A stretch of DNA of 52,384 nt from a virus. Within the stretch, counting starts at the first letter, position 1. Every line of letters begins with the position of its first letter. Below, one piece after another: positions 14,647 to 36,183 of this stretch. A model generated the notes under the pieces. The model was not told where the DNA came from and did not search any database. It saw only the letters and a program-made list of their open reading frames with translations. The stretch spans positions 1 through 52,384 of the IMG/VR virus record IMGVR_UViG_3300044998_000632, one strand, 5' to 3'. The position numbers and the translations under genes are program-made.

Positions 14647-14879
14647 ATGGACATCGTGCTTGCCTTCCTCATCAGCCAACTCCCCGGCTTCATCATCGCT
14701 GCCGTGGCGGGTTCGCCGTGGGCTGCTGGTGGTACCGCTACACGCTCAAGCGGGACCCCGCCAAACTGGAGCGACTTGCGGCCGAGGCTGACAAGCTCAA
14801 GGCCAAGCTCCCTCCGGAGCTGGTCGAGCTGATCAATCAGATGCAGGTCAAGATTCGCGACCTCGAAGCCAAGAAGTGA
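14647..14879 (+). pseudogene. Membrane-anchored coiled-coil gene with a -1 frame change
   Basis: From ATG 14647 the frame encodes a hydrophobic start (MDIVLAFLISQLPGFIIAAVAG). Just after 14708 the coding signal moves to the -1 frame, which continues as FAVGCWWYRYTLKRDPAKLE and a coiled coil ending at the TGA at 14877-14879. One extra G in the run at 14709-14711 would restore a single ~77-residue protein. In the original frame the chain runs on without meaning to 14832. Causes could be an assembly error, a true mutation, or translational frameshifting; no classical slippery heptamer is visible. A GTG at 14718 could also start the second part. Confidence 0.6.
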
Positions 14880-15385
14880 TCCCGCTGGCGCCACTTCTTG
14901 CCGCTGCAGCCATCGCGGGCGCGGGCTGGTACGGCTTTGTTCGTGGGGAGTCCCACGGCGTCGCCGTGACTGTTGCGCATTGGCAGGGAGTGGTCCAGAA
15001 GATGCTTGAGCGTGCCGCTGAGGCGGCGGAAACCGCCCGGGCTGACCGCGAGGTCCTTGAAGCCAACTGGAGGAACCGCTATGACGCCGCGATTCGGACC
15101 CAGGCTGCCGAGCAAGCTCGCGCGCAACGCATGGCTCGTGATCTTCAGCTTGCTCGTACTGAGCGTGACGGGCTGCGCACACAACTCGACGCCTTCGCTC
15201 GCGGTCCCGCCGACGCCGGTGACGATTCCCTTGCCGCCGCCCGTGACCGCGCCGCCGCCCTCGGGAGCGTACTGGATCGAGTATTGCAAGACCTTGAACG
15301 ACGTACGCTCGCGGCTGAAACTCACGCCGCCGATGTCCGATCCTTGCTCGCAGCTTGGCCTACCAGCTTCATGAAGGACGAGTAA
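14876..15385 (+). CDS. Inner-membrane spanin (Rz-like)
   Basis: 169 residues from a GTG that overlaps the preceding TGA (GTGA). N-terminal hydrophobic anchor (PLAPLLAAAAIAGAGWYGFV), then a long Ala/Arg/Glu-rich coiled coil through to the C-terminus, as in Rz i-spanins. It spans the periplasm with the Rz1 lipoprotein and fuses the membranes at lysis. The Rz1 gene is fully nested in its +1 frame. Confidence 0.78.
   Translation: MIPLAPLLAAAAIAGAGWYGFVRGESHGVAVTVAHWQGVVQKMLERAAEAAETARADREVLEANWRNRYDAAIRTQAAEQARAQRMARDLQLARTERDGLRTQLDAFARGPADAGDDSLAAARDRAAALGSVLDRVLQDLERRTLAAETHAADVRSLLAAWPTSFMKDE
15081..15374 (+). CDS. Outer-membrane spanin lipoprotein (Rz1-like), nested in Rz
   Basis: 97 residues in the +1 frame relative to Rz, with its own site GGAGG about 8 nt before ATG 15081. 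Signal peptide with hydrophobic core (WLVIFSLLVLSVTGC) and a lipobox ending in VTGC at about residue 32. The mature part is Pro-rich (PPTPVTIPLPPPVTAPPP), as in Rz1 proteins. The embedded arrangement is the lambda-like one, typical for Gram-negative hosts. Confidence 0.82.
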   Translation: MTPRFGPRLPSKLARNAWLVIFSLLVLSVTGCAHNSTPSLAVPPTPVTIPLPPPVTAPPPSGAYWIEYCKTLNDVRSRLKLTPPMSDPCSQLGLPAS

Positions 15386-15386
15386 C

Positions 15387-17309
15387 GTGCCCCTGCAGCG
15401 CATCCAGCTTCGTCCGGGGGTCGTGCGGGACACGACGAACTTCGCGGCGGAAGGGACTTGGTGGGACTGCAACAACGTGCGGTTTCGCGCCGGACTGCCG
15501 GAAAAGATCGGCGGATGGGTGCGCGCGTTCCCTACGCCGCTGGAAGGTGTCGGGTACTCGATCCGTGCGTGGGCCACCATCACCCCGCCGCGCATCCTGA
15601 CGGGCATCGGCACCTCGCGGCGGTTCTATATCGAGTCGAACGGGCAGGCATTCGACATCACCCCTGCGGTTCGCAGCGCCACGCCGGTGAACCCCTTCGC
15701 CACCGTGGCAGGGTCGTCGATTGTCGTGGTGACCTACCCCTCGCACGGCGTCGAGGTCGGAATGTCAGTGGTGATCAGCGGTGTGCTGGTGGCGGTTGGC
15801 GGCATCCCCGCCAGCGCGTTCAATCAGTCGTTCATCGCAGACCCCATCGACATCAATACCTTCCGCATTGACGTGGGGGTCAACGCCACATCGACCGTGG
15901 TTGCGGGGGGCGGTGCGCCGCTCGTGAGCATCCTGGCGCCGTCCGCCGCGGACGTCGTGGGCCTCGCTACCGGCTGGGGCGCGAGTCCATGGAGTTTTGG
16001 TGGATGGGGCGATGCCTTCGTGGGGTCCGCGTCGCCCAGCCGACAGCCGCAGTTGTGGAGTCAGGACAACCTGGGCTCGAACCTGTTCATCTGCCCTCGC
16101 GGGGGGCGCATCTACTACTGGGCCTTCGACAATGGCGGCGGGCTCGGTCGGCGGGCCGTCTCTTTGCAGACGTTCGTTGCATCACTTCCCCCACAAGATC
16201 CTGAGCCCGATCCCGAGTGGCTGCCCAAAGCGTGCAACATCGCGCTGTTCCACGCCGAGAGCGAGATTCTCGTGGCGGTCGGAGTGAACCCTACCCCGAC
16301 TGATGAAACCATTGATCCGATGTTCGTGCGCTGGTCCGACGAGTCTGACCCGTTTGACTGGGAGCCGCGGGTGACCAACCGCGCAGGGGGGCAGCGCCTC
16401 ACGTCGGGGTCGCAGCTCATCGCCGCGTTGCGCGTGCGCGAGAACATCCTGATCTGGAGCGACACGACGGTGTACTCGATGCAGTTCATCGGCGGCGGGG
16501 AGCAGTTCAGCATTGAAGCGCAGTTCGAGGGGGTGACAATTCAGGGACCCAACGCCGCTGTGGTCATCGGCGGTGCCGCGTACTGGATGGGCGACCGAGC
16601 GTTCTACAAGTACGACGGTACCCTGCGACCGCTTGCGTGTCCCATCACGGATCGGGTGTTCAGCGACATCAGCCGGATTCGCGGCTTTCAGGTCGCCTGT
16701 GGGTACAACGAGCGGTTCAACGAGATCTGGTGGTACTACTGCGACGCCAACGATCTGCTCCCCTCGAAGTACATCATCTACAACTTCGCGGAGGATGTCT
16801 GGACCTTCGGCGAAATGAGCCGCACTGCGTGGTCCCGGCATCAGTTTGCCAACCGTCCATACGCCACCTTGCCAGCCCTTGACGTGGACGTATGGGGCAA
16901 TGTGCGCTACACCTCCACGGTGCTTATTCATGAGACCGGCCCGGACGATGTGGCGTCGGGGACTCCAGCCGCGATTCCTGCGTTCATCGAGTCCACTGAC
17001 TTCGACATCTCCGAGGGGCATGTGTTCTCGTTTGTCTCGAAGATGATCCCCGATCTGCGATTTGACAACTCGACTGCGATCCTCCCGACGGTCACGATCA
17101 CGATGAAGTGGCGCAACGAGCCGGGGCGGCTGCCGTCAGCGGACCCTGCGCTGAACGTGGAGCAGATTGCTGCGAATCAGTACACCCCGCAGCTCGACTT
17201 TCGGCTTCGTGCCCGGCAGAGCGCCATTCGCATCGAGAGTAACCAGATCGGTTGCCAGTGGCGATGGGGTGTTCCGCGGCTTGACGTGCGCCCGGACGGC
17301 CGGCAATGA
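15387..17309 (+). CDS. Large tail/nozzle-like structural protein
   Basis: 640 residues from a GTG one nt after the Rz stop. Start: LQRIQLRPGVVRDTTNFAAE then GTWWDCNNVRFRAGLPEKIGGW, a signature I associate with the podovirus tail tube/nozzle and stabilisation proteins (P22 gp10, T7 gp12-like), which form beta-propeller-like tail rings. Later repeats of WSD/YW motifs (FVRWSDESDPFDWEP, YNERFNEIWWYYCD) fit a propeller. Likely distal tail tube. Confidence 0.68.
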   Translation: MPLQRIQLRPGVVRDTTNFAAEGTWWDCNNVRFRAGLPEKIGGWVRAFPTPLEGVGYSIRAWATITPPRILTGIGTSRRFYIESNGQAFDITPAVRSATPVNPFATVAGSSIVVVTYPSHGVEVGMSVVISGVLVAVGGIPASAFNQSFIADPIDINTFRIDVGVNATSTVVAGGGAPLVSILAPSAADVVGLATGWGASPWSFGGWGDAFVGSASPSRQPQLWSQDNLGSNLFICPRGGRIYYWAFDNGGGLGRRAVSLQTFVASLPPQDPEPDPEWLPKACNIALFHAESEILVAVGVNPTPTDETIDPMFVRWSDESDPFDWEPRVTNRAGGQRLTSGSQLIAALRVRENILIWSDTTVYSMQFIGGGEQFSIEAQFEGVTIQGPNAAVVIGGAAYWMGDRAFYKYDGTLRPLACPITDRVFSDISRIRGFQVACGYNERFNEIWWYYCDANDLLPSKYIIYNFAEDVWTFGEMSRTAWSRHQFANRPYATLPALDVDVWGNVRYTSTVLIHETGPDDVASGTPAAIPAFIESTDFDISEGHVFSFVSKMIPDLRFDNSTAILPTVTITMKWRNEPGRLPSADPALNVEQIAANQYTPQLDFRLRARQSAIRIESNQIGCQWRWGVPRLDVRPDGRQ

Positions 17310-19011: not shown

Positions 19012-19914
19012 ATGTGCATGCGCGGCGGTGGCGGTGGCGGCGGTGCCCAGACGGTGATGAACACCAACGTCCCGGCGGAAGTGATGCCTATCTATCGCTC
19101 TGCGATAGAGCGCGCGAATGCCGTGTCGAATCGGGAGTACACCCCGTACGCGGGCCAGCGGATCGCGGAGTTCAGCCCACTGCAGCAACAAGCGCAGGCG
19201 CGGGCGAGCGGGCTGGACGTCCCCCGTCAAATCGGCACGGCTTCCAATATGGTGACGCAGGCGGGGCAGGCCGGTGTAGGGACGCAGCGGTTCATCGACC
19301 CCGGGGTCGCCGGCGCGTACATGAACCCCTACACTGAGCAGGTTGTCAGCCGCAACCTGCGTGAGGCAGAACGCGGGTTCAACATCGGCGAGATGAACCG
19401 GACTGCCGACACCATCAAGCGGGGCGGGCTCGGCGGCTATCGCGATCAGCTCCTGCGTTCCGAGGCGCGCCGCAACCAAGACATGCGGCTGGACGACATC
19501 GCCAATACCGGCTACGCGGCGGCGTTCGACAACGCGGGCCGGATGTTCACCAGCGATGCGGGGCGGCAATTGCAGGCCGACATGGGCACCATGCAAGGCC
19601 GCATCCAGGCAGGGCAGACGCTGGGCGGGCTGGGGCGCATGGAACTCGACGCGCAGCGCGGCGTCATCGACATGCAAAATCAGATCGGCAGCCAGCAGCA
19701 ACAGCAGGTGCAGCGCGGGCTGACGCAGAGTTACCAGGACTTTTTGGACCAGCGCAACTGGGACTGGGGACAGTTGGCCAACCTGCGTAACATCATCAGC
19801 GGGGTCAACACCGGGAGCACGTCGACCACGACGTCACAGGCCGGCAACCCGATGGCGCAGGCAATTGGCACCGGCCTATCCGCGCTTGCAGCGTACAACT
19901 TGGGTCAGGGGTAA
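19012..19914 (+). CDS. Internal virion protein with Gly-rich N-terminus
   Basis: 300 residues; starts MCMRGGGGGGG. Gln/Arg-rich, coiled-coil-like middle (QQQAQARASGLDVPRQIG, QNQIGSQQQQQVQRGLTQ), and a small hydrophobic Ala/Gly tail (NPMAQAIGTGLSALAAYNLG). The composition matches phage ejection proteins. It is one of four genes forming the presumed DNA-ejection set before the giant protein. Confidence 0.65.
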   Translation: MCMRGGGGGGGAQTVMNTNVPAEVMPIYRSAIERANAVSNREYTPYAGQRIAEFSPLQQQAQARASGLDVPRQIGTASNMVTQAGQAGVGTQRFIDPGVAGAYMNPYTEQVVSRNLREAERGFNIGEMNRTADTIKRGGLGGYRDQLLRSEARRNQDMRLDDIANTGYAAAFDNAGRMFTSDAGRQLQADMGTMQGRIQAGQTLGGLGRMELDAQRGVIDMQNQIGSQQQQQVQRGLTQSYQDFLDQRNWDWGQLANLRNIISGVNTGSTSTTTSQAGNPMAQAIGTGLSALAAYNLGQG

Positions 19915-19917
19915 GAC

Positions 19918-21309
19918 ATGCTCGACCCATCGATCCCCCGACTGCAATCCCAGCTTCAAAAGCTGCCCGACGCGCAGCTCGCCCGCCTGTTGTCGGGTGG
20001 GGATACGCCCGTGCCGCCGTTCCTTGTCTTGGCCGAGATGGAGCGGCGCAAGTCGATGCGCAACCGAGCGCAGGCACAGACCCCGCCAGGGACGATGGTG
20101 AGTGAACTCACCGATGGCGGCGGGATCGCCAAGTTCGCCGAGGGCGGGACGGTGGAATCTCCTGGGCTCAACCGAGTCGGGCGGTATCTCGTCTCCCCCC
20201 TGTGGGGATTCATGCAAGACCTGCAGGACACCGCCTCGCGCAACCTGGAAGACTACACGCTTCGACGTAGGAAGGAGTTGGGGCATTTCGATCCGCCGCG
20301 TCCGGCTCACATGACGCCGCAGCAGATCGAGCGTGCGGTCAAGCCCGCGCCTGCGCCCGCCATTCTCGTGGATGCCGCACCAAGCGGCAGCATGGGAGGC
20401 GGTATCGGGGGCGAAATGCCGAGCTACACCCCGCAGTACATCGAGGTTCCGGAAGTCCGTGACATTGAGTATTACCGTGGGCAACTCGGACCGACGCCAC
20501 AGATGCAAGCGGTGACCCCGGAACAGCGCGACGCCATCCGCAAGAAGCTGCAGAGCGAATACGGTTACGACTGGTCGAAGGAGCGTCAGGCGCAGGACGA
20601 ACGCCGCCAAGGGCTCGCCAAGATGAAGCGCGACGGCGCCAACCAAGCGCTACTGCGGCTAGGTCTGGGGATGATGGCCACACGCGAGCGCAACGGGCTG
20701 GCTGCCATCGGGCAGGCCGGGCTGCCGGCGCTCGATGCGTACGCTCAGGCGCAGCAGGCGGCACGTGCCGAGGCTGCGGCCATTCAGCGCGGCGACTTGG
20801 AAATCGCTCGCGCCGCCAATGCCGAGAAGCTGAACTTCCTGGCCATGGCAGATCGGCAAGCTGCGAGCGAGAACGATGTCGCGTTCCGTAACGCAGCGGC
20901 GCAGGGCCAGCACACGCGCAGCGCGATCGACCTGCGGCGCGGGGACATCGAGCGCAATGAGGCGGCGCTGCGGTACAACCTGGGCGAATCCAACGCTGCC
21001 CGCCGGTTCAATTTTGCGGCGACTCGGGCCGGGCGTGCGCCGGCCATCGAGATGGCACCGTCGCCGTGGGCATCCGAGGCGTTCAAGCAGGCTTCCGCGG
21101 CGCTTGAAGCACGCTACGCGGAGCTTGCGGCTCGGGCGAAGAAGGGTCCGCAACTGACGCGGGAAGAGTTCGCCGAGATGAACCGGTTGGCGGACCCCAT
21201 GGTGCGCGTGCGCTTGGCGGGGGAAGCGGCGCAGCGCGTGGCGCCGATGTACATGAAGCGTGGTGGAATCAGCGCCATCCCGGCGGAAACCCCCGTCGCC
21301 GAAGAGTGA
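19918..21309 (+). CDS. Coiled-coil internal virion protein
   Basis: 463 residues. The N-terminus has RLQSQLQKLPDAQLARLLSG then GGGIAKFAEGGTVESPG, another copy of the FAxGGxV motif. The C-terminal half is a long Ala/Arg/Glu-rich coiled coil (AAAIQRGDLEIARAANAEKL). Consistent with an ejectosome protein. It ends one nt before the giant gene's start. Confidence 0.65.
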   Translation: MLDPSIPRLQSQLQKLPDAQLARLLSGGDTPVPPFLVLAEMERRKSMRNRAQAQTPPGTMVSELTDGGGIAKFAEGGTVESPGLNRVGRYLVSPLWGFMQDLQDTASRNLEDYTLRRRKELGHFDPPRPAHMTPQQIERAVKPAPAPAILVDAAPSGSMGGGIGGEMPSYTPQYIEVPEVRDIEYYRGQLGPTPQMQAVTPEQRDAIRKKLQSEYGYDWSKERQAQDERRQGLAKMKRDGANQALLRLGLGMMATRERNGLAAIGQAGLPALDAYAQAQQAARAEAAAIQRGDLEIARAANAEKLNFLAMADRQAASENDVAFRNAAAQGQHTRSAIDLRRGDIERNEAALRYNLGESNAARRFNFAATRAGRAPAIEMAPSPWASEAFKQASAALEARYAELAARAKKGPQLTREEFAEMNRLADPMVRVRLAGEAAQRVAPMYMKRGGISAIPAETPVAEE

Positions 21310-21310
21310 C

Positions 21311-24300
21311 ATGGCCGGCATCACCGATTACAACGCCAACTTTGTCCGGCCGTACGACCCGGGGCTCGTTCGACGCCGCGCGCAGGCATTGCAGCAGCCG
21401 ACTCCGTACGACGACCTGTTCATCAAGTATGGTCGGATGTATGGGATCGACCCGATCGAGCTGAAGCTGCGCGCTCTGGTCGAGTCGGGGTTCAATCCGA
21501 CCGCCCGCAGCCCCGCGGGCGCAGTGGGGCTGATGCAGTTCATGCCGTCAACGGCTCGTGAGCTTGGCATCAACCCCATGAACCCGGAGGAAGCAGTCAA
21601 GGGCGCGGCGCAGTTGATGGCCGAGGCACTGAAGTCGACTGGCTCGATGCGCGGCGTCGACATGACGTACTACGGCGGGCCGAATCCGAAGCAATGGGGG
21701 CCCAACACCCGGCAGTACGCAGCCAACCTTGATGCAGTCCGCCGTGCGGCGGGCGTAGGAGGCGGCGAAGTTCTGGATGACGACGACCCGCGGCTGATGC
21801 AGCCAACGGGCGGCGCCCGCCCACTGCGGTTCATGCACCCGGAAACGGGAGAGACGTTTGCGTTCCCTGCGGGCACGACCGGGGAGCAGGCACGCGCGCT
21901 GATGGACGCGAAGTACGCCCAGCGCGAGCAACAGGCGCAAGCGCGAGCAGCGGAAGAAGCCAAGGCGTACCGGCAGTACCTGCGGGACAACAACAACGCC
22001 ATCGCGTCCGGTGTACGCCGCGGCATCGGGCAACTCCCTATTCTGGGCGCACAGGCGCTCGCGGCGGGGGCCGGGACACTGGGTGCGACCGGAGTACGCG
22101 ACTCACTGCTGGATGCGGCCGCGCAACGCCAAGACCAGCTTAACCAGGACGCGCCGCAGTTGTACGACTCCTTCATGGAGTCTCCCCTGGGCTACCTCGG
22201 CGAGCGCCTTGGCGAGCAGGTTCCCAACATGGCCGCGGTCGTGGCTGGCGGCGGCATCGGCGGACTCACTGGGCGGGCGCTCGTCGCCCGTTCAGCAGCG
22301 GGTGCAGCGAGGCAAGCCGCAGCACGCGCCGCAACGACTCGACGGGGCGCCATTGCCGGCGCAACCGTGCCGTCCTACGGGCTACAGGCGGGAGAGAACT
22401 ACGGCTCGTACGTCGATGAGTACGGCGTCGACAAGGCCAGCCCCGGAGCCGCCCTGCTGGGTGCAATCCCGCAGACGGCGCTCGATGTGTGGGCGCTCGG
22501 TCGGCTGGGACGCATGCTGACCCCGCAAGAAATCAGCTCGCTGAATCCCATGCAACTTCGCCGGCTTTCACGCGAAGGTATGGCCATGCAAGCGGCGCGC
22601 GGCGCTGCGCGCGGCCTTGGGCGTGGGGTGGTCATCGAAGCCCCCACGGAAGCTGGGCAGGAATCGCTCAAGTACGCCTTCGGCGACATGTCCCAAGGGC
22701 AGGCGCCAACTGCGTTCCTGTCTGATCCGGAGAAGCGCGCGCAGGTCGGTGAGGCGGGTTTCGTGGGCGGGCTCACTGGCGGCACCATTGGCGGCATCGG
22801 GGGCGGCATTGGCGGTGCGCGTCGCCCCGCCCTTGCCGCGGAGCGGTTCCAGGCGATGCGCGAGGGCCGCAGGAACGAAGTGGAAGCCCGGGTGCGCGAT
22901 GCCAAGGAGATGGGTCCGCCAGCGCCGTGGGGCGCCAGCACGCCGCTGCCAGGCCCCCCGGAGCGAGTCGGTCCTCCGGCCCCATGGGAGGCTGCGTTCC
23001 CGCCTGCGGGCATGCCAGCGCCGCAGCCGCTGCAGCTCGGCTATGACCCGATGGCCGACTTCCGTCAGCGCGCTGCGGATATGACTGCGGCCGCCAACGA
23101 GCCGCGCAACATCGTTGAGAGCGTCCGCACTCCGGGGCAGGGCATGGCAGGTCCGCGGTTCCCGCAGCTTGGCATGGACCCCGAGGCGATCGATCGCGAG
23201 CGTAGCGCTCGTGAGCGCGCGGTGCAAAACCAGATCGCCCTGGAGACGGCGAAGCAGAACGTTTTAGCGCGTCAGCGTCAGAGCCAGGAACAACTCGCAG
23301 CGCTGCAGCGGCTCGAAGGGGAGCGGCAGGATGCTCGTCGCCAGATCGACGACCTGACACCACGCCAACTGGACCTGGTGGCTGATATGGGTCGAGGCGG
23401 GGCGCGGCCGTTGGCGCGGCCGTTCGAAGACCCGTACGTCCCGCTGAACGAGCGCGATCCGATCCTGATGCGGTCGACGGACGAGGAGACAGCATCGCTG
23501 CCTGGAATGGAGCCCGCGCTGCTGGACGATGGTGTCCCCGGTACGCGCGACGAGACCATGGCGCTGCTGCGGCAGGCGGGCATCGTGGCTGACGGTGACG
23601 TCCGCCCGGCAACGGTGCGCAACCGTTCCTTCGGTCTGCCTGGACCGACCACCATGCCGGGGCCGACCGGCATGAGCCCGTATGACCGTGCGGCTCGTGC
23701 GCTCGGCGAGCGGATGGCCAGCAACGCTGGTCCGGAGGGCTACAGCCTCGCGAGCCCTGAGGGGCTCGCCGGCGTCTACAACGAGCTGGTGAATCTGCGC
23801 GCCATACTTGCCCGCCAGCAGCGCACCATGGGTCGTACCCCGCGCCGGGAGCGGCAAGCCCAAGCCCTCGATGCGCTGATCAATTCGGTGCGCCCAACAG
23901 AAGCCCCGTCCGGTCCGCGCACCGCCCGGCCAGATGCGGACACTCCGATCCGCCGCCCCACGCGCGAAGAGCGGGAGACGTCTCGCGCGCAGGCCCGCGA
24001 GACACCGCGGGTCGCAGGGATTCCCGCCGCTGCGCAGGATGTCGCGCAGGTCGCGGACAAGGTGCGGAGGGACGTTGCCGAGGGCCGCGTGCTGGGCGAC
24101 CCGGTCAAGGACGAGAAGACGGGCGAGATGCGCCCGCGTACGCTGCGCGACCTGTTGACTGGGCGCAAGTACACAGAAGCCAAGACTCTGGCCAAGGAGC
24201 AGGAGCGCCTGCGAGCCACGCCGGAAGAACTCGCTGCTGGGCAGAAGCTCTGGGACAGCGTCGTTCCGGCGGGCAATCTGAAGTGGAGTGATCTTCCCGA

Positions 24301-27300
24301 GCCCCCGGTGATCGAGATGGACACCGGCAAGGAACTCACGGGCGGCAAAGGCAAAGCGAAAACGGAAGTCGACCAAGCGATCGTCGACGACGTGCGCAAC
24401 ATGTTTGCGCTGTGGAATGCGACTAACCCCCGTGCGACGCCGGAGCAGGTTCGGCAGTGGGTGACGGATGCAATCAACGACGTGCGCCAGCCCACGCTAG
24501 CCAAGCGCGACATCGGACCCAAGGCTCAACGAAAGCGCAAGGACTCGGAAGAGGACATGTTCGAGTCCCTCGCCGACTCCGAAGAGTCGCTGATCAAGGA
24601 CATCGAGCAGCAACTCAAGAAGCCTGGGCTGCGTCCCAAGCAGCGAGCTGAGCTGGAAGTGGCGCTGGAAGACGCCCGGGAAGCGTTGCGCAAGCTCCGC
24701 GAAGACGAGAAGGCATCGAATGCGCGCGAGGCGACGCGGGAGCCCGCAACACTTGCTGCGCCCCTGAACTGGAACTCGGCGGTCGACCTGCTGACGCAGA
24801 ACGGCGCCGCTCTGTTCGATGACCGGCCGTCGTCCACACCGCCGCTGAGATCGCGCCGCAAGGCGACCAAGGCAAAGAATTCGCTCGAAGAGCGGCGTCG
24901 CGCGGCGCAGGAAAAGATCCTCGCGATGTTCCGGGAAGCCGCGGAATCAGTTGATGCCGAGCCCACGGATACGGTCGACGACATCGAAGCCAAGACCCGT
25001 CGCGCAGCACTCTTACTGCCGAAGGGCGCTGGCACGCCGATGCGGCGGTCGGACCATGCGGACACTGCGACGCGGCTACGTCGGCTGGCTCAGGCGCGCT
25101 TGCCGGATGCCAACATCGTGGTGGTCGCAGACCGCGCGGAGCTGACCGATCCAGAAGCGCTGGCGGCGTTCGATGCCGGCGAGCTTGGACTCGCTGCATC
25201 GAATGGTTCGGCGTACGTGTTCGTCCCCAACCACCGCACCATCGAGGATGCGGAGGTAACGCTATTCCATGAACCGGGCCACCTGTTCATGCGGGCGGTG
25301 CCGGTATCAGCGCTGGCGCGCATGATGGAGCCGTTCCGAGCAAACCAACAGGTACAGAAGCTCAAGGACGCATGGCTGGCCAACACGGCCAACCGCGAGC
25401 GCATGGCGCAGCGGCCTGGCTACGACTGGGATACGCACGCCACGGAAGAAGCCATCGTCGAGTTCGGGCAGACCGCGTTCGGCAAGCCCACCATCACGGC
25501 ACTTGCTGCGCGGGTGATCAACTGGGTGCGCCGGCTTGGCGGCAACCGCTTGGCTGACTTCCTGGCGGGCCGCAACGACAAATTGCAGGTGGTCGAGTTC
25601 TTGATCGAGATGCGTCGGCGCTACGCCGAGGCTGGTGCGCCGAAAGGACCGCCGGGGCCGTCGCGGTTCCGTACGCCTACCGAGGGCAATCTCACCTCGA
25701 CCAGCGCGTCAGACCTGGAGGCAGACCGCCGGCTGAACGCCGCAGTCGACAGGGCTATCGGAAGTCGCGGAGAGCTGTTCCGCGCTGCATGGGGAAACGC
25801 GACCGGCCGAGCCGGTCGCGCCGCTTTGATGTCGCTACTTGACCTGCGCTCCCTCGGCCGGCTATTGGATGACGTGGCGTCGCAGGCAGGGATCGACCGC
25901 TTCCAGGGCGTTGGCATGCGCATCTACAACCTGCTCAACCAGCAGGATGCCGTGGACCAGGGCGTGCGCGCCACGTTCATGCGCGACGCCATCAACCCGC
26001 TCGTGGAGCTTCGCAACGCCAACCAGCCGATGTTCGAGCGCGTGCAGTCGATGCTGTACAAAGCGTCGTTCATGCGGTTCGATCCGCGCACCAAGGTCCA
26101 GGAAGAGGGCAAGGGCAGCCCCGAAATCCGGGCGCAGCGCCTTGAGCTGCAGCGGCAGTACAACGCACTGAATCCACAGGCTCGACGCGCGTTCGACCAA
26201 GTATTCGATTCCACCCGCCGGTCCTTCGAGGAAATGACCAGCCAGATGCGGGCACATGCCGAGCGGATGCTGGCGGCTGCGAAACAGACAGCCGCCAACG
26301 CAACGCCGGACGAGCGCGCTGCAGCGCAGGCCGATGTGCTGCGGCGTGTCAATGGACTGGAGAAGCTGAATCGGGCCATCGAGGAGCTGGGCAACGTCAT
26401 GCCCTACGTCCCGTTCCGTCGTGCGGGCGACTTCCTGATCTCATACATCCACCCGAGTACCAAGGTTCCCGGCGTGCGGGCGTTTGAGACCGCGGCGCAA
26501 CGGGATCGGGCATTCGATGCCATGCGCCGCCTCGGCGTCAAGCAGGCGGAGAAGTTCAACCGCTACGAGGAGCCGAGCAAGTTCTTCGATTCCTTGGACG
26601 CTACCACGAAGTCAGTGATCCGCGCACTGCGTGAAGCCCGCGGCGTGGATCCCGATGCGCCGGCCACTCCGTCTGACCCGTCGGAAACTGGTCGCGCGCA
26701 GCGCGGCGACCCCACGCCCGAGGAGGTTCGTGAGGCTGTCTTCGCGCAGATCGAGGACAACATCATTGACGTCCTGCGTTCGATGTCGCCGGCGGGGCGC
26801 ATGTTCGATGCGGCGATGAAACGCGAGAACTACCCTGGCTTCGACGAGAACATCCTCGAAGCCCTCAGTGCATACGCCACCTCGGCGGGCCGCAACATGT
26901 CCAATCTGCTGACGGGTGCGGAGATCGGCGAAGCGTTTGCTGACGCAAACCGGATGCGCGCCGCGTCTGTCACCCGGCCGGGCATGGAGGTCAACGACCC
27001 TAGCACAAAGACGTATCTCACCGACGATCAGCTCGACAGCGTTCACGCCGTTGTCGGCGAGTTGAACAAGCGGCGAGAATTTCTGATGGCGCCGTTCTAC
27101 TCGCCGGTGGCCAATACGCTGACCAAGGGCGGCTTCTACTTCTTCATGGGGCTGAACCCGTCATCTGCGCTACTGCAGGCGTTCCAGATGGTCATGGTGC
27201 AGGCCCCGGTTCTGGCAGGACGCTACGGGGTTCCACGGGCGTTTCGGTCCATGTGGAGCGCGGCCACCCGGGTCTACGGCACTGAGGCACCGCTGCGGTC

Positions 27301-28747
27301 GTTCCTGGATAGCGGCGAGGGTTATCGGTTGGCCCGGTACGACGCCACGATGCTCAACCCGGACGGATCGGCTAAGGAGGGCGCGGACACGTACACCCGC
27401 GACTATGCGCGCTTGCGCACGAGCAGCCGCCGAACGGATCAGTACCGGGCGATGATGGTCGACATGCTGCGCCGAGGCATCATGAACGACCAAGCGACGC
27501 AGGAGCTGAACGACATGCGAGAGGGTAAGGACCCGACTCGCGTGGCTGCCAAAGTTGAGCACTACATGTCGCTGATGATGAAGCACATGGAGCAGACCAA
27601 CCGCATGGCGTCGACTATCGCCGCGTTCGATCTGGCTGCGCGCCGGGGTCGTTCGTGGGAAGACGTGATGAACGAGGTAGAGCAGGCGGTGTACGAGGGA
27701 CACGGCAACTACAGCGCCCTCAACTCCCCGCGGCCGTGGCACAGCAACACCGGCAAGGTGCTGTTGCTCTTCCGCAAGTTCGCGTTCCACATGTTCACTA
27801 CGATGGGCATGATGGTGCGCGACTACATCCGCGCGCAGCGGGGATCCCAGGAACGCCGCGAAGCGGCGACCAAGCTGGGCATGATGCTGCTCACGACCGG
27901 TGCGCTGACGGGCGCTGCGGGGCTGCCGCTATACGGCGTAGCACAGACGCTCTTCCAGATGTTCCAGTCTGCATTCGGAGACGAGGAAGAGACTCGCAAC
28001 CTGACGATCGCGCTGCATAAGTGGGCCGAGGAGAAGGGCGCGAATCGGGAGCTGGTGAACGTGGCCATGGGCGGCATCCCGAGCTTGCTGGGCTTGAATC
28101 TGACCAGCCGGCTGGGCTATGCGGACGTGTTCTTTCGCGACCCGGACGAGAACCTGGATCAGAAGAAGGCTCTGGAGTGGGCCGTGCAGACCATCGGCGG
28201 TCCAATGTACGGCGCAGGCGCACAGATTGCTCGCGGCATCAGCAACGTGGCCAACGGCAACATCATGCTCGGCGCCAGCGAGATGGTCGGCGCAATGCCG
28301 CGCAACCTGGCCAAAGGGCTTGACATGTACATGAGCGGCGAGGTGACGACGCGCCGCGGCGACGTGATCGCAGAGGTGGGCGCGGGGGATGCACTGCTCC
28401 AGGCATTCGGCTTCGTCCCCGGCGACGTACAGCGACAGCAGCAGATCATCTTTGCCGCCAAGGCGGCGGACGTGCGGCTGAACTCGATCCGTGCCGAGGC
28501 ACTGAATCTGTACCGCAACGCCTACGCCATCGGCGATGCGGACATGATGGAGCGGGCGAAGACGGAAATCGAGCGGGTCAACGCGATCGCCGCGCGAAAT
28601 AATCTGCCCAAGTACCGCATTACGCAGGATACTCTGACTCGGTCGGTGCGGGCTCGATTCGAGAACGACGAGAACTTCGTCAGCGGCGTTCGGTTCGCCC
28701 CTGCCACAGCCCCGGCAACCGCCAGCATTCGGGCACTGATCCAGTGA
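21311..28747 (+). CDS. Giant internal virion protein: lytic transglycosylase + HEPGH motif + LPD-type domains
   Basis: 2478 residues. Start ATG 21311 (one nt after the upstream stop). Residues ~30-150 form an SLT-type lytic transglycosylase: Glu58 in LRALVESGFNP, GLMQFMPSTA at 73-82, YYGGP later, expected to open peptidoglycan during DNA entry. Residues ~230-1300 are Arg/Glu/Pro-rich. An HExxH motif, HEPGH at residues 1320-1324, precedes a Glu pair at 1379-1380, a gluzincin-like layout. Residues ~1600-2200 resemble large polyvalent protein domains (YVPFRRAGDFLISYI; NTGKVLLLFRKFAFHMFTTM) with hydrophobic segments that could insert in membrane. The function is inferred by analogy to podovirus ejection proteins; whether the metallopeptidase site is active is unknown. 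Confidence 0.78.
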   Translation: MAGITDYNANFVRPYDPGLVRRRAQALQQPTPYDDLFIKYGRMYGIDPIELKLRALVESGFNPTARSPAGAVGLMQFMPSTARELGINPMNPEEAVKGAAQLMAEALKSTGSMRGVDMTYYGGPNPKQWGPNTRQYAANLDAVRRAAGVGGGEVLDDDDPRLMQPTGGARPLRFMHPETGETFAFPAGTTGEQARALMDAKYAQREQQAQARAAEEAKAYRQYLRDNNNAIASGVRRGIGQLPILGAQALAAGAGTLGATGVRDSLLDAAAQRQDQLNQDAPQLYDSFMESPLGYLGERLGEQVPNMAAVVAGGGIGGLTGRALVARSAAGAARQAAARAATTRRGAIAGATVPSYGLQAGENYGSYVDEYGVDKASPGAALLGAIPQTALDVWALGRLGRMLTPQEISSLNPMQLRRLSREGMAMQAARGAARGLGRGVVIEAPTEAGQESLKYAFGDMSQGQAPTAFLSDPEKRAQVGEAGFVGGLTGGTIGGIGGGIGGARRPALAAERFQAMREGRRNEVEARVRDAKEMGPPAPWGASTPLPGPPERVGPPAPWEAAFPPAGMPAPQPLQLGYDPMADFRQRAADMTAAANEPRNIVESVRTPGQGMAGPRFPQLGMDPEAIDRERSARERAVQNQIALETAKQNVLARQRQSQEQLAALQRLEGERQDARRQIDDLTPRQLDLVADMGRGGARPLARPFEDPYVPLNERDPILMRSTDEETASLPGMEPALLDDGVPGTRDETMALLRQAGIVADGDVRPATVRNRSFGLPGPTTMPGPTGMSPYDRAARALGERMASNAGPEGYSLASPEGLAGVYNELVNLRAILARQQRTMGRTPRRERQAQALDALINSVRPTEAPSGPRTARPDADTPIRRPTREERETSRAQARETPRVAGIPAAAQDVAQVADKVRRDVAEGRVLGDPVKDEKTGEMRPRTLRDLLTGRKYTEAKTLAKEQERLRATPEELAAGQKLWDSVVPAGNLKWSDLPEPPVIEMDTGKELTGGKGKAKTEVDQAIVDDVRNMFALWNATNPRATPEQVRQWVTDAINDVRQPTLAKRDIGPKAQRKRKDSEEDMFESLADSEESLIKDIEQQLKKPGLRPKQRAELEVALEDAREALRKLREDEKASNAREATREPATLAAPLNWNSAVDLLTQNGAALFDDRPSSTPPLRSRRKATKAKNSLEERRRAAQEKILAMFREAAESVDAEPTDTVDDIEAKTRRAALLLPKGAGTPMRRSDHADTATRLRRLAQARLPDANIVVVADRAELTDPEALAAFDAGELGLAASNGSAYVFVPNHRTIEDAEVTLFHEPGHLFMRAVPVSALARMMEPFRANQQVQKLKDAWLANTANRERMAQRPGYDWDTHATEEAIVEFGQTAFGKPTITALAARVINWVRRLGGNRLADFLAGRNDKLQVVEFLIEMRRRYAEAGAPKGPPGPSRFRTPTEGNLTSTSASDLEADRRLNAAVDRAIGSRGELFRAAWGNATGRAGRAALMSLLDLRSLGRLLDDVASQAGIDRFQGVGMRIYNLLNQQDAVDQGVRATFMRDAINPLVELRNANQPMFERVQSMLYKASFMRFDPRTKVQEEGKGSPEIRAQRLELQRQYNALNPQARRAFDQVFDSTRRSFEEMTSQMRAHAERMLAAAKQTAANATPDERAAAQADVLRRVNGLEKLNRAIEELGNVMPYVPFRRAGDFLISYIHPSTKVPGVRAFETAAQRDRAFDAMRRLGVKQAEKFNRYEEPSKFFDSLDATTKSVIRALREARGVDPDAPATPSDPSETGRAQRGDPTPEEVREAVFAQIEDNIIDVLRSMSPAGRMFDAAMKRENYPGFDENILEALSAYATSAGRNMSNLLTGAEIGEAFADANRMRAASVTRPGMEVNDPSTKTYLTDDQLDSVHAVVGELNKRREFLMAPFYSPVANTLTKGGFYFFMGLNPSSALLQAFQMVMVQAPVLAGRYGVPRAFRSMWSAATRVYGTEAPLRSFLDSGEGYRLARYDATMLNPDGSAKEGADTYTRDYARLRTSSRRTDQYRAMMVDMLRRGIMNDQATQELNDMREGKDPTRVAAKVEHYMSLMMKHMEQTNRMASTIAAFDLAARRGRSWEDVMNEVEQAVYEGHGNYSALNSPRPWHSNTGKVLLLFRKFAFHMFTTMGMMVRDYIRAQRGSQERREAATKLGMMLLTTGALTGAAGLPLYGVAQTLFQMFQSAFGDEEETRNLTIALHKWAEEKGANRELVNVAMGGIPSLLGLNLTSRLGYADVFFRDPDENLDQKKALEWAVQTIGGPMYGAGAQIARGISNVANGNIMLGASEMVGAMPRNLAKGLDMYMSGEVTTRRGDVIAEVGAGDALLQAFGFVPGDVQRQQQIIFAAKAADVRLNSIRAEALNLYRNAYAIGDADMMERAKTEIERVNAIAARNNLPKYRITQDTLTRSVRARFENDENFVSGVRFAPATAPATASIRALIQ

Positions 28748-34632: not shown

Positions 34633-36183
34633 CTAGCTCCTTGCGATGTCGGTGAACAGGCTCACCGCGGCCTCATGCACGTTGATGTTTCTACGTAGCG
34701 TGGAATATACCTTAGTTTCCGCCGCAGATCCAGTGAGGTGAATCACGGTGCATCGCTGGGTCTGTCCGATGCGATGGAAGCGGTCATTGGCCTGCTTGTA
34801 CATCTCGACTGACATCGTCGGGGACCACCAGACAGTGGTGTCCGCCCGAGTCAGCGTCAGGCCGTGTGCGGCCGCTTGCGGCTGCAGCACCAGGACTCGC
34901 AGATGGTCGGTCTGTTGAAACTGAAAGATCAGATTGCGTCGTTCGTGTGCGCTGACGTCCCCGTGGATGGCCATTGCAGGGACCCCCGCTGCGTTCAGCC
35001 GCGTAGTGAGGTCCTCGATGATGCCGCGAAAGAGCGCGAAGACCAGCACCTTCTCTGTCGTCTGCTCGATGATGTTGATCAACTCCGTGAACCGCGAGGT
35101 GTAATCCAGCGCGATGGGCTCCCGGTCGTTGGCGTAGACCACCCCGGAGCTGATCTGCAGCAGCTTGCCCAGCAACACGGCGGCGTTGGCCGCGGTGATC
35201 TCGCCACGCTCCGTGTCGAGCAGCATCTCTTTCTTGAGTCGTGTGTAGTGGTCGAGCTGTTCCTTGGACAGCGCCACGTGCCGGTCCAGGTAGACCCGCT
35301 CTGGTAGGTCGAGGCACTGCTCCTTGGTGAACCGGATCGACGGCTTGAGGATCTCGTTGACGCGCTGCGCAGCGTCGGCCTTGGGGGACCAGACAAACCG
35401 CGACTGCTGAACCATGACCGCGTCCCGCCACGTCGAAAAGTACTTCGGACACTGCGAGTTGCCCAGCAACCGCGACAGCCCGTACGCGTCCACGGGGGAC
35501 TGACTCGCCGGGGTGCCGGTGAGCAGCACCACGCGGGTCTCCGGCTTGATGAGCCGTACCAGCGCCTTGTATCGACGGATTGTGTGGTTCTTAAACGCGT
35601 TGGCCTCGTCGATCACGATCATGTCGAAGTCCGACGCGAGCAGTTTGTCGGTCTCGACATGCAACAGACCGTCGAAGTTCATCACGACGATCTCCGCGGG
35701 TGATTTCAGGACATCAAGCCGCCGAGGCAGAGTGCCGTGGGCGACGCCGACCTGCCGGTGTGGCGCCGCTACCGCAAAGTCGTTGACCCATGCGGAGTAC
35801 ATGACGCTGACGGGGCACAGCACCAGCACGCGTCGTACGCGCTTGCGCAGCAGAAGGTAGTCACATGCCGCGACCGCAGCGATGGTCTTCCCGGTACCCT
35901 GCTCGTTCCATACCCCGCAGCGCATGTGCGCGGTAATGAACTCCGCCGTGCGGACTTGATGTTGATAGGGCTGGATGTGCCACTTGTAGAAATGGCGAAA
36001 CGGCGTGGGCGGATCAAACCCGGCAAGTCCGAGGCGAACAGCGTTGTCCAGCGTCCAGTGGACGAGCAGCCCGTCGTCGGTGGGCTGGGTGTTGCTCAGC
36101 AATGGCGCAAGCTGGTCGTTCGTGCCTCCGCGGACCTTGATCGCCGCGTCGCCCACAATCTCGATGCGCGGATCGTGGTTCAT
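34633..36183 (-). CDS. SF2 DNA helicase (SNF2-like)
   Basis: 516 residues. Walker A NEQGTGKT at 93-100, motif II DEAN at 192-195, motif III LLTGTPASQ, and a C-terminal helicase half with VLVFALFRG and ADTTVWWSPTMSVEMYKQAN...RFHRIGQTQ, the SNF2/DEAD-like motif V-VI pattern. It uses ATP to move on or remodel DNA, probably at the fork or during recombination. Complete length, ATGA overlap with the small gene upstream. Confidence 0.85.
   Translation of the reverse strand: MNHDPRIEIVGDAAIKVRGGTNDQLAPLLSNTQPTDDGLLVHWTLDNAVRLGLAGFDPPTPFRHFYKWHIQPYQHQVRTAEFITAHMRCGVWNEQGTGKTIAAVAACDYLLLRKRVRRVLVLCPVSVMYSAWVNDFAVAAPHRQVGVAHGTLPRRLDVLKSPAEIVVMNFDGLLHVETDKLLASDFDMIVIDEANAFKNHTIRRYKALVRLIKPETRVVLLTGTPASQSPVDAYGLSRLLGNSQCPKYFSTWRDAVMVQQSRFVWSPKADAAQRVNEILKPSIRFTKEQCLDLPERVYLDRHVALSKEQLDHYTRLKKEMLLDTERGEITAANAAVLLGKLLQISSGVVYANDREPIALDYTSRFTELINIIEQTTEKVLVFALFRGIIEDLTTRLNAAGVPAMAIHGDVSAHERRNLIFQFQQTDHLRVLVLQPQAAAHGLTLTRADTTVWWSPTMSVEMYKQANDRFHRIGQTQRCTVIHLTGSAAETKVYSTLRRNINVHEAAVSLFTDIARS

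Follow-up and report, generated by a model that had tools for sequence, protein, structure and literature searches.

A single phage protein of 2478 amino acids combines a cell wall-cutting domain with a predicted zinc-peptidase domain, and sequence families, conservation and gene order, together with a structural model, lend good support to this pairing within one ejection-type protein. The protein is encoded in the window, the whole 52,384-base viral record IMGVR_UViG_3300044998_000632 (64% G+C), and we regard it as probable that it is a virion-carried polyvalent ejection protein composed of an SLT lytic transglycosylase, a zincin and a PLxRFG domain, with self-processing as the best guess for the zincin. 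Since the order SLT, HExxH and PLxRFG recurs in five other phage proteins and agrees with the polyvalent proteins of Iyer et al. (2017; PMC5512222), the protein joins a known class first described in 2017; the class itself is not new. In the literature on polyvalent, DarB, PLxRFG, zincin and transglycosylase proteins no report of this particular protein was found. A preliminary description had proposed that one protein could both open peptidoglycan and cut a protein: the two domains required for this hold up well, while cleavage and its target are predictions.

The gene (21311..28747, +; ORF, PHROGs, NCBIfam) starts with an ATG at 21311, one base past the stop of the upstream gene, and runs through 2478 uninterrupted codons to a stop at 28747. 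The reading frame had thus been placed exactly in the preliminary description, and the residues named there (Glu58, GLMQ 73-76, HEPGH 1320-1324 and EE 1379-1380) are all found at these positions. Neither a large terminase nor a portal protein was recognised among the scanned ORFs, a subset of those in the window, and therefore the record may be incomplete as a genome; this concerns positions 1-2072 and the record's ends. No tRNA was found in the 52,384 bases.

The N-terminal SLT domain comprises residues 36-135 (21416..21715, +), where Pfam PF01464 reaches 66.5 bits (E=2e-18) over a gathering cut-off of 21.3, and it contains the catalytic Glu58 within LVESGFN as well as the GLMQ motif at residues 73-76. 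It is a genuine member of its family, as had been claimed, and the single PF01464 match in the whole record. The SLT domain together with the segment that follows it (residues 27-215; 21389..21955, +) also matches phrog_342, 'internal virion protein with endolysin domain' (PHROGs, E=3.1e-22). A function as lysis endolysin was set aside, as the domain forms part of a giant virion-type protein. At the other end of the protein, residues 1812-2464 (26744..28702, +) match NCBIfam NF032893, 'PLxRFG domain-containing protein' (tail-700), with 293 bits over a curated cut-off of 100, and phrog_10089, 'DarB-like antirestriction', covers residues 1629-2460 (PHROGs, E=5e-47). Both matches bear out the early impression of a resemblance to large polyvalent proteins. 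In alignment with relatives, the stretch PYVPFRRAG that starts at residue 1698 (26402..26428, +) emerges as a diverged form of the PLxRFG motif. Pfam LPD39 matches 9 of the 11 members of alignment A1, described below, and gave no match to the window's protein at E≤0.1; a Foldseek search of the C-terminal model against the PDB returned no match at E≤0.001.

Between these two blocks lies HEPGH (residues 1320-1324; 25268..25282, +), the sole HExxH of the protein, for which 0.006 occurrences are expected from the protein's own composition. An EE pair follows 59 residues downstream (residues 1379-1380; 25445..25450, +); located on a later helix, it may supply the third zinc ligand. In alignment A1, which combines the corresponding part of the window's protein with that of ten phage relatives of 18-23% identity, the H, E and H of the motif are invariant in 11/11 sequences and the window's EE is in register with the EE of most; in most HExxH relatives this pair stands 55-68 residues past the motif. 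A second alignment, A3, consists of the window's protein and 26 IMG/VR relatives that were selected for HExxH from 29 listed stretches (L018, L022 and L017 were excluded). With this selection, H-E-H is present in 27/27, and a near-invariant Glu is located on the later helix, with the window's EE one column off the conserved Glu in A3 but in register in A1. A fairer sample than the preselected A3 is given by the phmmer relatives, of which 63 were reduced to 55 distinct ones after removal of two without a PLxRFG-type motif and six duplicates; many of their loci were seen with a 10 kb flank only, so that the N-termini lie outside. HExxH is found 250-650 residues before the PLxRFG motif in 32 of the 55 (33 if the slot is widened to 240-670 residues) and is absent from this slot in 23. 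The distance is 378 residues in the window's protein and 361-665 in the relatives. The commonest spellings in the relatives are HEAFH (12), HEMFH (6) and HEIIH (4), and none of the 55 has HEPGH or any other proline inside the motif. The HExxH letters are kept in homologues, but the precise spelling with its proline is not shared, and this residue may reduce a peptidase activity. A DNA pattern for LFHEPGHL hit six viral contigs, all of them judged to be chance occurrences, since they lie in open frames of 50-260 codons in which phmmer detected no similarity to the query.

In the window's protein the zincin goes unnamed in all three family libraries (Pfam, PHROGs, NCBIfam); the core that we delimit at residues 1248-1389 (25052..25477, +) is based on the H-E-H conservation and on the elements of an AlphaFold model (m4b5cd501c107, residues 59-200) built on a 27-sequence alignment. 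The mean pLDDT of this model is only 66.5 but rises to roughly 80-90 in the core, which spans model residues 61-140. A helix (59-74) is followed by a strand (81-84), a second helix (92-99) and two further strands (104-106 and 112-115), after which helix 122-140 carries HEPGH and helix 184-200 carries EE. The predicted model therefore shows the layout of zincin-like metallopeptidases (MPTases), i.e. HExxH on one helix, Glu on a later one, and a three-stranded sheet with an N-terminal helix, in the same element order as described for polyvalent MPTases (Iyer et al. 2017; PMC5512222). Structure prediction accordingly puts the motif into a predicted zincin active-site helix, and we consider a zincin domain around HEPGH likely. 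Foldseek found no PDB match to the model at E≤0.001. Among its low-ranked candidates, VIA-align compared the zincins lethal factor N-terminal domain, selecase, PPEP-1 and MATCAP at Z 3.4-5.5, which is weak (all <8), and the alignment profile reached IrrE, another zincin, at an E value of only 0.033.

The closest parallels are the DarB-like/PLxRFG proteins of Parlo, LASTA, Skulduggery and PEp14, which carry SLT, an HExxH domain and PLxRFG in the same order. They differ from the window's protein in size (3695-4914 aa versus 2478 aa) and in their motifs (HEAFH, HELFH or HEILH versus HEPGH), and share 20-23% identity with it over the aligned part. The N-terminal transglycosylase of the Parlo DarB homologue was already reported (PMC6606913). 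Among ten N-termini examined, five (L003, L004, L006, L007 and L056) contain an SLT domain over the Pfam cut-off and also HExxH upstream of PLxRFG, and therefore have all three parts together; four have neither an SLT nor a Hydrolase_2 domain. The remaining one, from Ochrobactrum phage POI1126 (L005:1293-2192), has Hydrolase_2, another cell-wall hydrolase, in place of SLT, and the wall-cutting module thus seems to be exchanged among relatives as well. With the whole protein as query, tblastn matched 566 phage records, none with at least 80% coverage and all below 60% identity, and 15 of the 60 matches listed concern the SLT part alone. Whether queried with the complete sequence, with its zincin part or with its C-terminal part, the viral contigs yielded no related locus.

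Lysozyme as well as zincin domains occur in the injected polyvalent proteins that were described for phages by Iyer et al. (2017; PMC5512222). The window's protein resembles these in its very large size, in the pairing of a peptidoglycan-cutting domain with an HExxH zincin, in its late (virion) gene context and in the functions proposed, but differs from them in that SNF2 helicase, methylase and ART domains are all absent from the Pfam matches within its 2478 residues. It combines SLT, zincin and PLxRFG and so unites at least two disparate biochemical activities in one polypeptide of a mobile element, the second activity being predicted. We regard it as a compact, diverged addition to this group. 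As its recognised parts are limited to SLT, zincin and PLxRFG, it ranks among the simpler members and is convenient for testing the self-cleavage prediction made in 2017.

The gene order agrees with a role in the virion. The large gene is the last of a run on the + strand, after which genes on the - strand follow; upstream of it lie a virion stabilization protein (15387..17309, +; phrog_3287, 9e-61), which served as anchor of the gene-order comparison, and a gene of the 'DNA ejection protein' family (19012..19914, +; phrog_4287, E=1.5e-14). The 463-aa product of the gene directly upstream (19918..21309, +), separated from the large gene by a 1-base gap, has no PHROG or Pfam match and is possibly a partner ejection protein. 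Mass spectrometry of purified virions identified JC1 gp69, a DarB-like relative, with 51 unique peptides (PMC9144972). P1 DarB is assumed to pass into the cell, and its N-terminal 30 residues target a reporter to the capsid (PMC9024508). The window also contains a weak match to Rz-like spanins just 5' of the stabilization gene (14876-15385; phrog_312, 5.7e-06) and, at 34633-36183 on the - strand, a free-standing SNF2-type helicase (PF00176, 7e-22); in phage Parlo, helicase domains were described inside the giant DarB homologue (PMC6606913).

We propose that the 2478-aa protein is carried in the virion as an ejection protein of the phage polyvalent class, with an N-terminus that would work like T7 gp16. 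In T7, gp16 is an ejection protein whose N-terminal transglycosylase acts during genome entry, and under certain conditions internalisation of the genome depends on this enzyme; the part of PMC8954989 that deals with it does not give gp16 a metallopeptidase. By this description, the N-terminus of gp16 is what the SLT domain and the segment after it resemble. Judged from its family and position, the SLT domain would cut peptidoglycan as the protein exits the particle, and the large helical PLxRFG domain at the C-terminus may be a conserved part of the virion or of a conduit. In the zincin that precedes it, His1320 and His1324, probably together with Glu1380 or Glu1379, are predicted to bind zinc, and Glu1321 to activate water. 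The zincin might then process its own long chain, before packaging or on entry, and thereby separate the N-terminal portion with its wall-cutting domain from the C-terminal one. Domains, conserved letters and gene position are observed, virion presence, ejection, catalysis and target are what we infer for this protein, and self-processing is favoured with modest confidence. In favour of this reading we count the SLT domain, phrog_342, NF032893, the H-E-H conservation, the AlphaFold element order, the zincins among the low-ranked structural candidates, the gene order and the presence of JC1 gp69 in virions; against it count the whole-packaged virion RNA polymerase (vRNAP) of N4, the proline in HExxH, the weak structural matches, the low mean pLDDT of the zincin model, the 23 of 55 relatives without HExxH and the EE off register in A3.

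The main alternative to self-processing is the cleavage of another virion or host protein. For polyvalent MPTases self-processing was proposed with P1 DdrB as example, and cleavage of host proteins was named as an option (Iyer et al. 2017; PMC5512222). The zincin could in this way act as an effector that is injected and, after entry, cleaves a protein of the host, e.g. a defence component, and the designation of the relatives as DarB-like antirestriction proteins would fit; since this name goes back to the C-terminal block and to annotation and not to a tested zincin activity, and since the target is putative, we consider such an effector possible but doubtful. That the fold was kept for a structural or packaging role, with HEPGH as the decayed motif of an inactive peptidase, appears unlikely. 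It is favoured by the proline, which has no counterpart in the relatives, and by the N4 virion RNA polymerase, which needs its MPTase region for encapsidation and is packaged and stays whole (PMC5512222); against it, H, E, H and the downstream EE were retained here at only about 20% identity to the relatives. A chance HEPGH in a linker is highly improbable, as alignments A1 and A3 already disfavour it along with the low expected number of HExxH motifs, the distance to PLxRFG within the range of the relatives and the zincin element order predicted by AlphaFold, even though a tblastn search of 50,697 phage records with the zincin domain alone matched nothing even at E≤10.

Self-processing, our favoured role for the zincin, may also be approached from the slot in front of PLxRFG, the occupation of which by a zincin or a JAMM-like motif in relatives offers a second line on the question of self-cleavage. 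In 16 of the 55 relatives, among them L024, L036, L039 and L031, HExxH is replaced by H-x-H-P...S-x-x-D at 428-444 residues before PLxRFG; three of the remaining slots contain HExxxH and three neither. The motif reads HNHPxxxxLSxxDI with an invariant Glu upstream, and when 12 members are aligned, all of them share E142, H186, H188, S195 and D198, numbered after the L036 stretch. We take the pattern E...HxH...SxxD to be that of JAMM metallopeptidases. None of these 12 members matched the Pfam JAB or RadC models at E≤1 and a profile of the slot matched no JAB structure in the PDB, so the assignment is made at the level of the motif. Of the 16 JAMM-like loci, 12 have a flanking segment, '...W...EL...RH...LKPK', ahead of the motif, and 11 of 33 loci have it ahead of their HExxH domain; its distance from the motif is 99-115 residues in the 12 JAMM-like cases and 87-139 residues in 5 of the 11 HExxH cases. 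As the flank is common to both groups, the pattern looks like an exchange of modules, zincin versus JAMM-like, in one slot. Only tentatively do we suggest that this position is a dedicated processing-protease slot of giant phage ejection proteins, occupied by a zincin or an unrelated JAMM-like zinc peptidase, whose self-cut upon entry would release wall-opening or anti-defence domains from the part that belongs to the virion or conduit. If so, the JAMM-like module would be a peptidase, in contrast to the action on nucleic acids that has been guessed for the RadC-type JAB domains of polyvalent proteins.

The remainder of the virion genes seems to have a different ancestry. The closest named phages by stabilization protein include DSL-LC04, MinM2, Roseobacter CRP-901 and Pelagibacter HTVC027P. 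In seven named phages with this protein, large proteins are likewise encoded near the end of the virion gene run, but phmmer found no match to our query in any of them, and hence the ejection protein of the window's phage seems to come from another lineage than the backbone with which it is combined. No PLxRFG protein was seen in these seven, with NF032893 at 0/7 in a search that was without any positive-control match. One of them, MW202675, has an SLT protein annotated as 'internal virion protein D', and in another, Synechococcus phage MinM2, a 2804-aa protein annotated as RelA/SpoT (L093:15886-24297), with two HExxH motifs, is located at the end of the virion genes.
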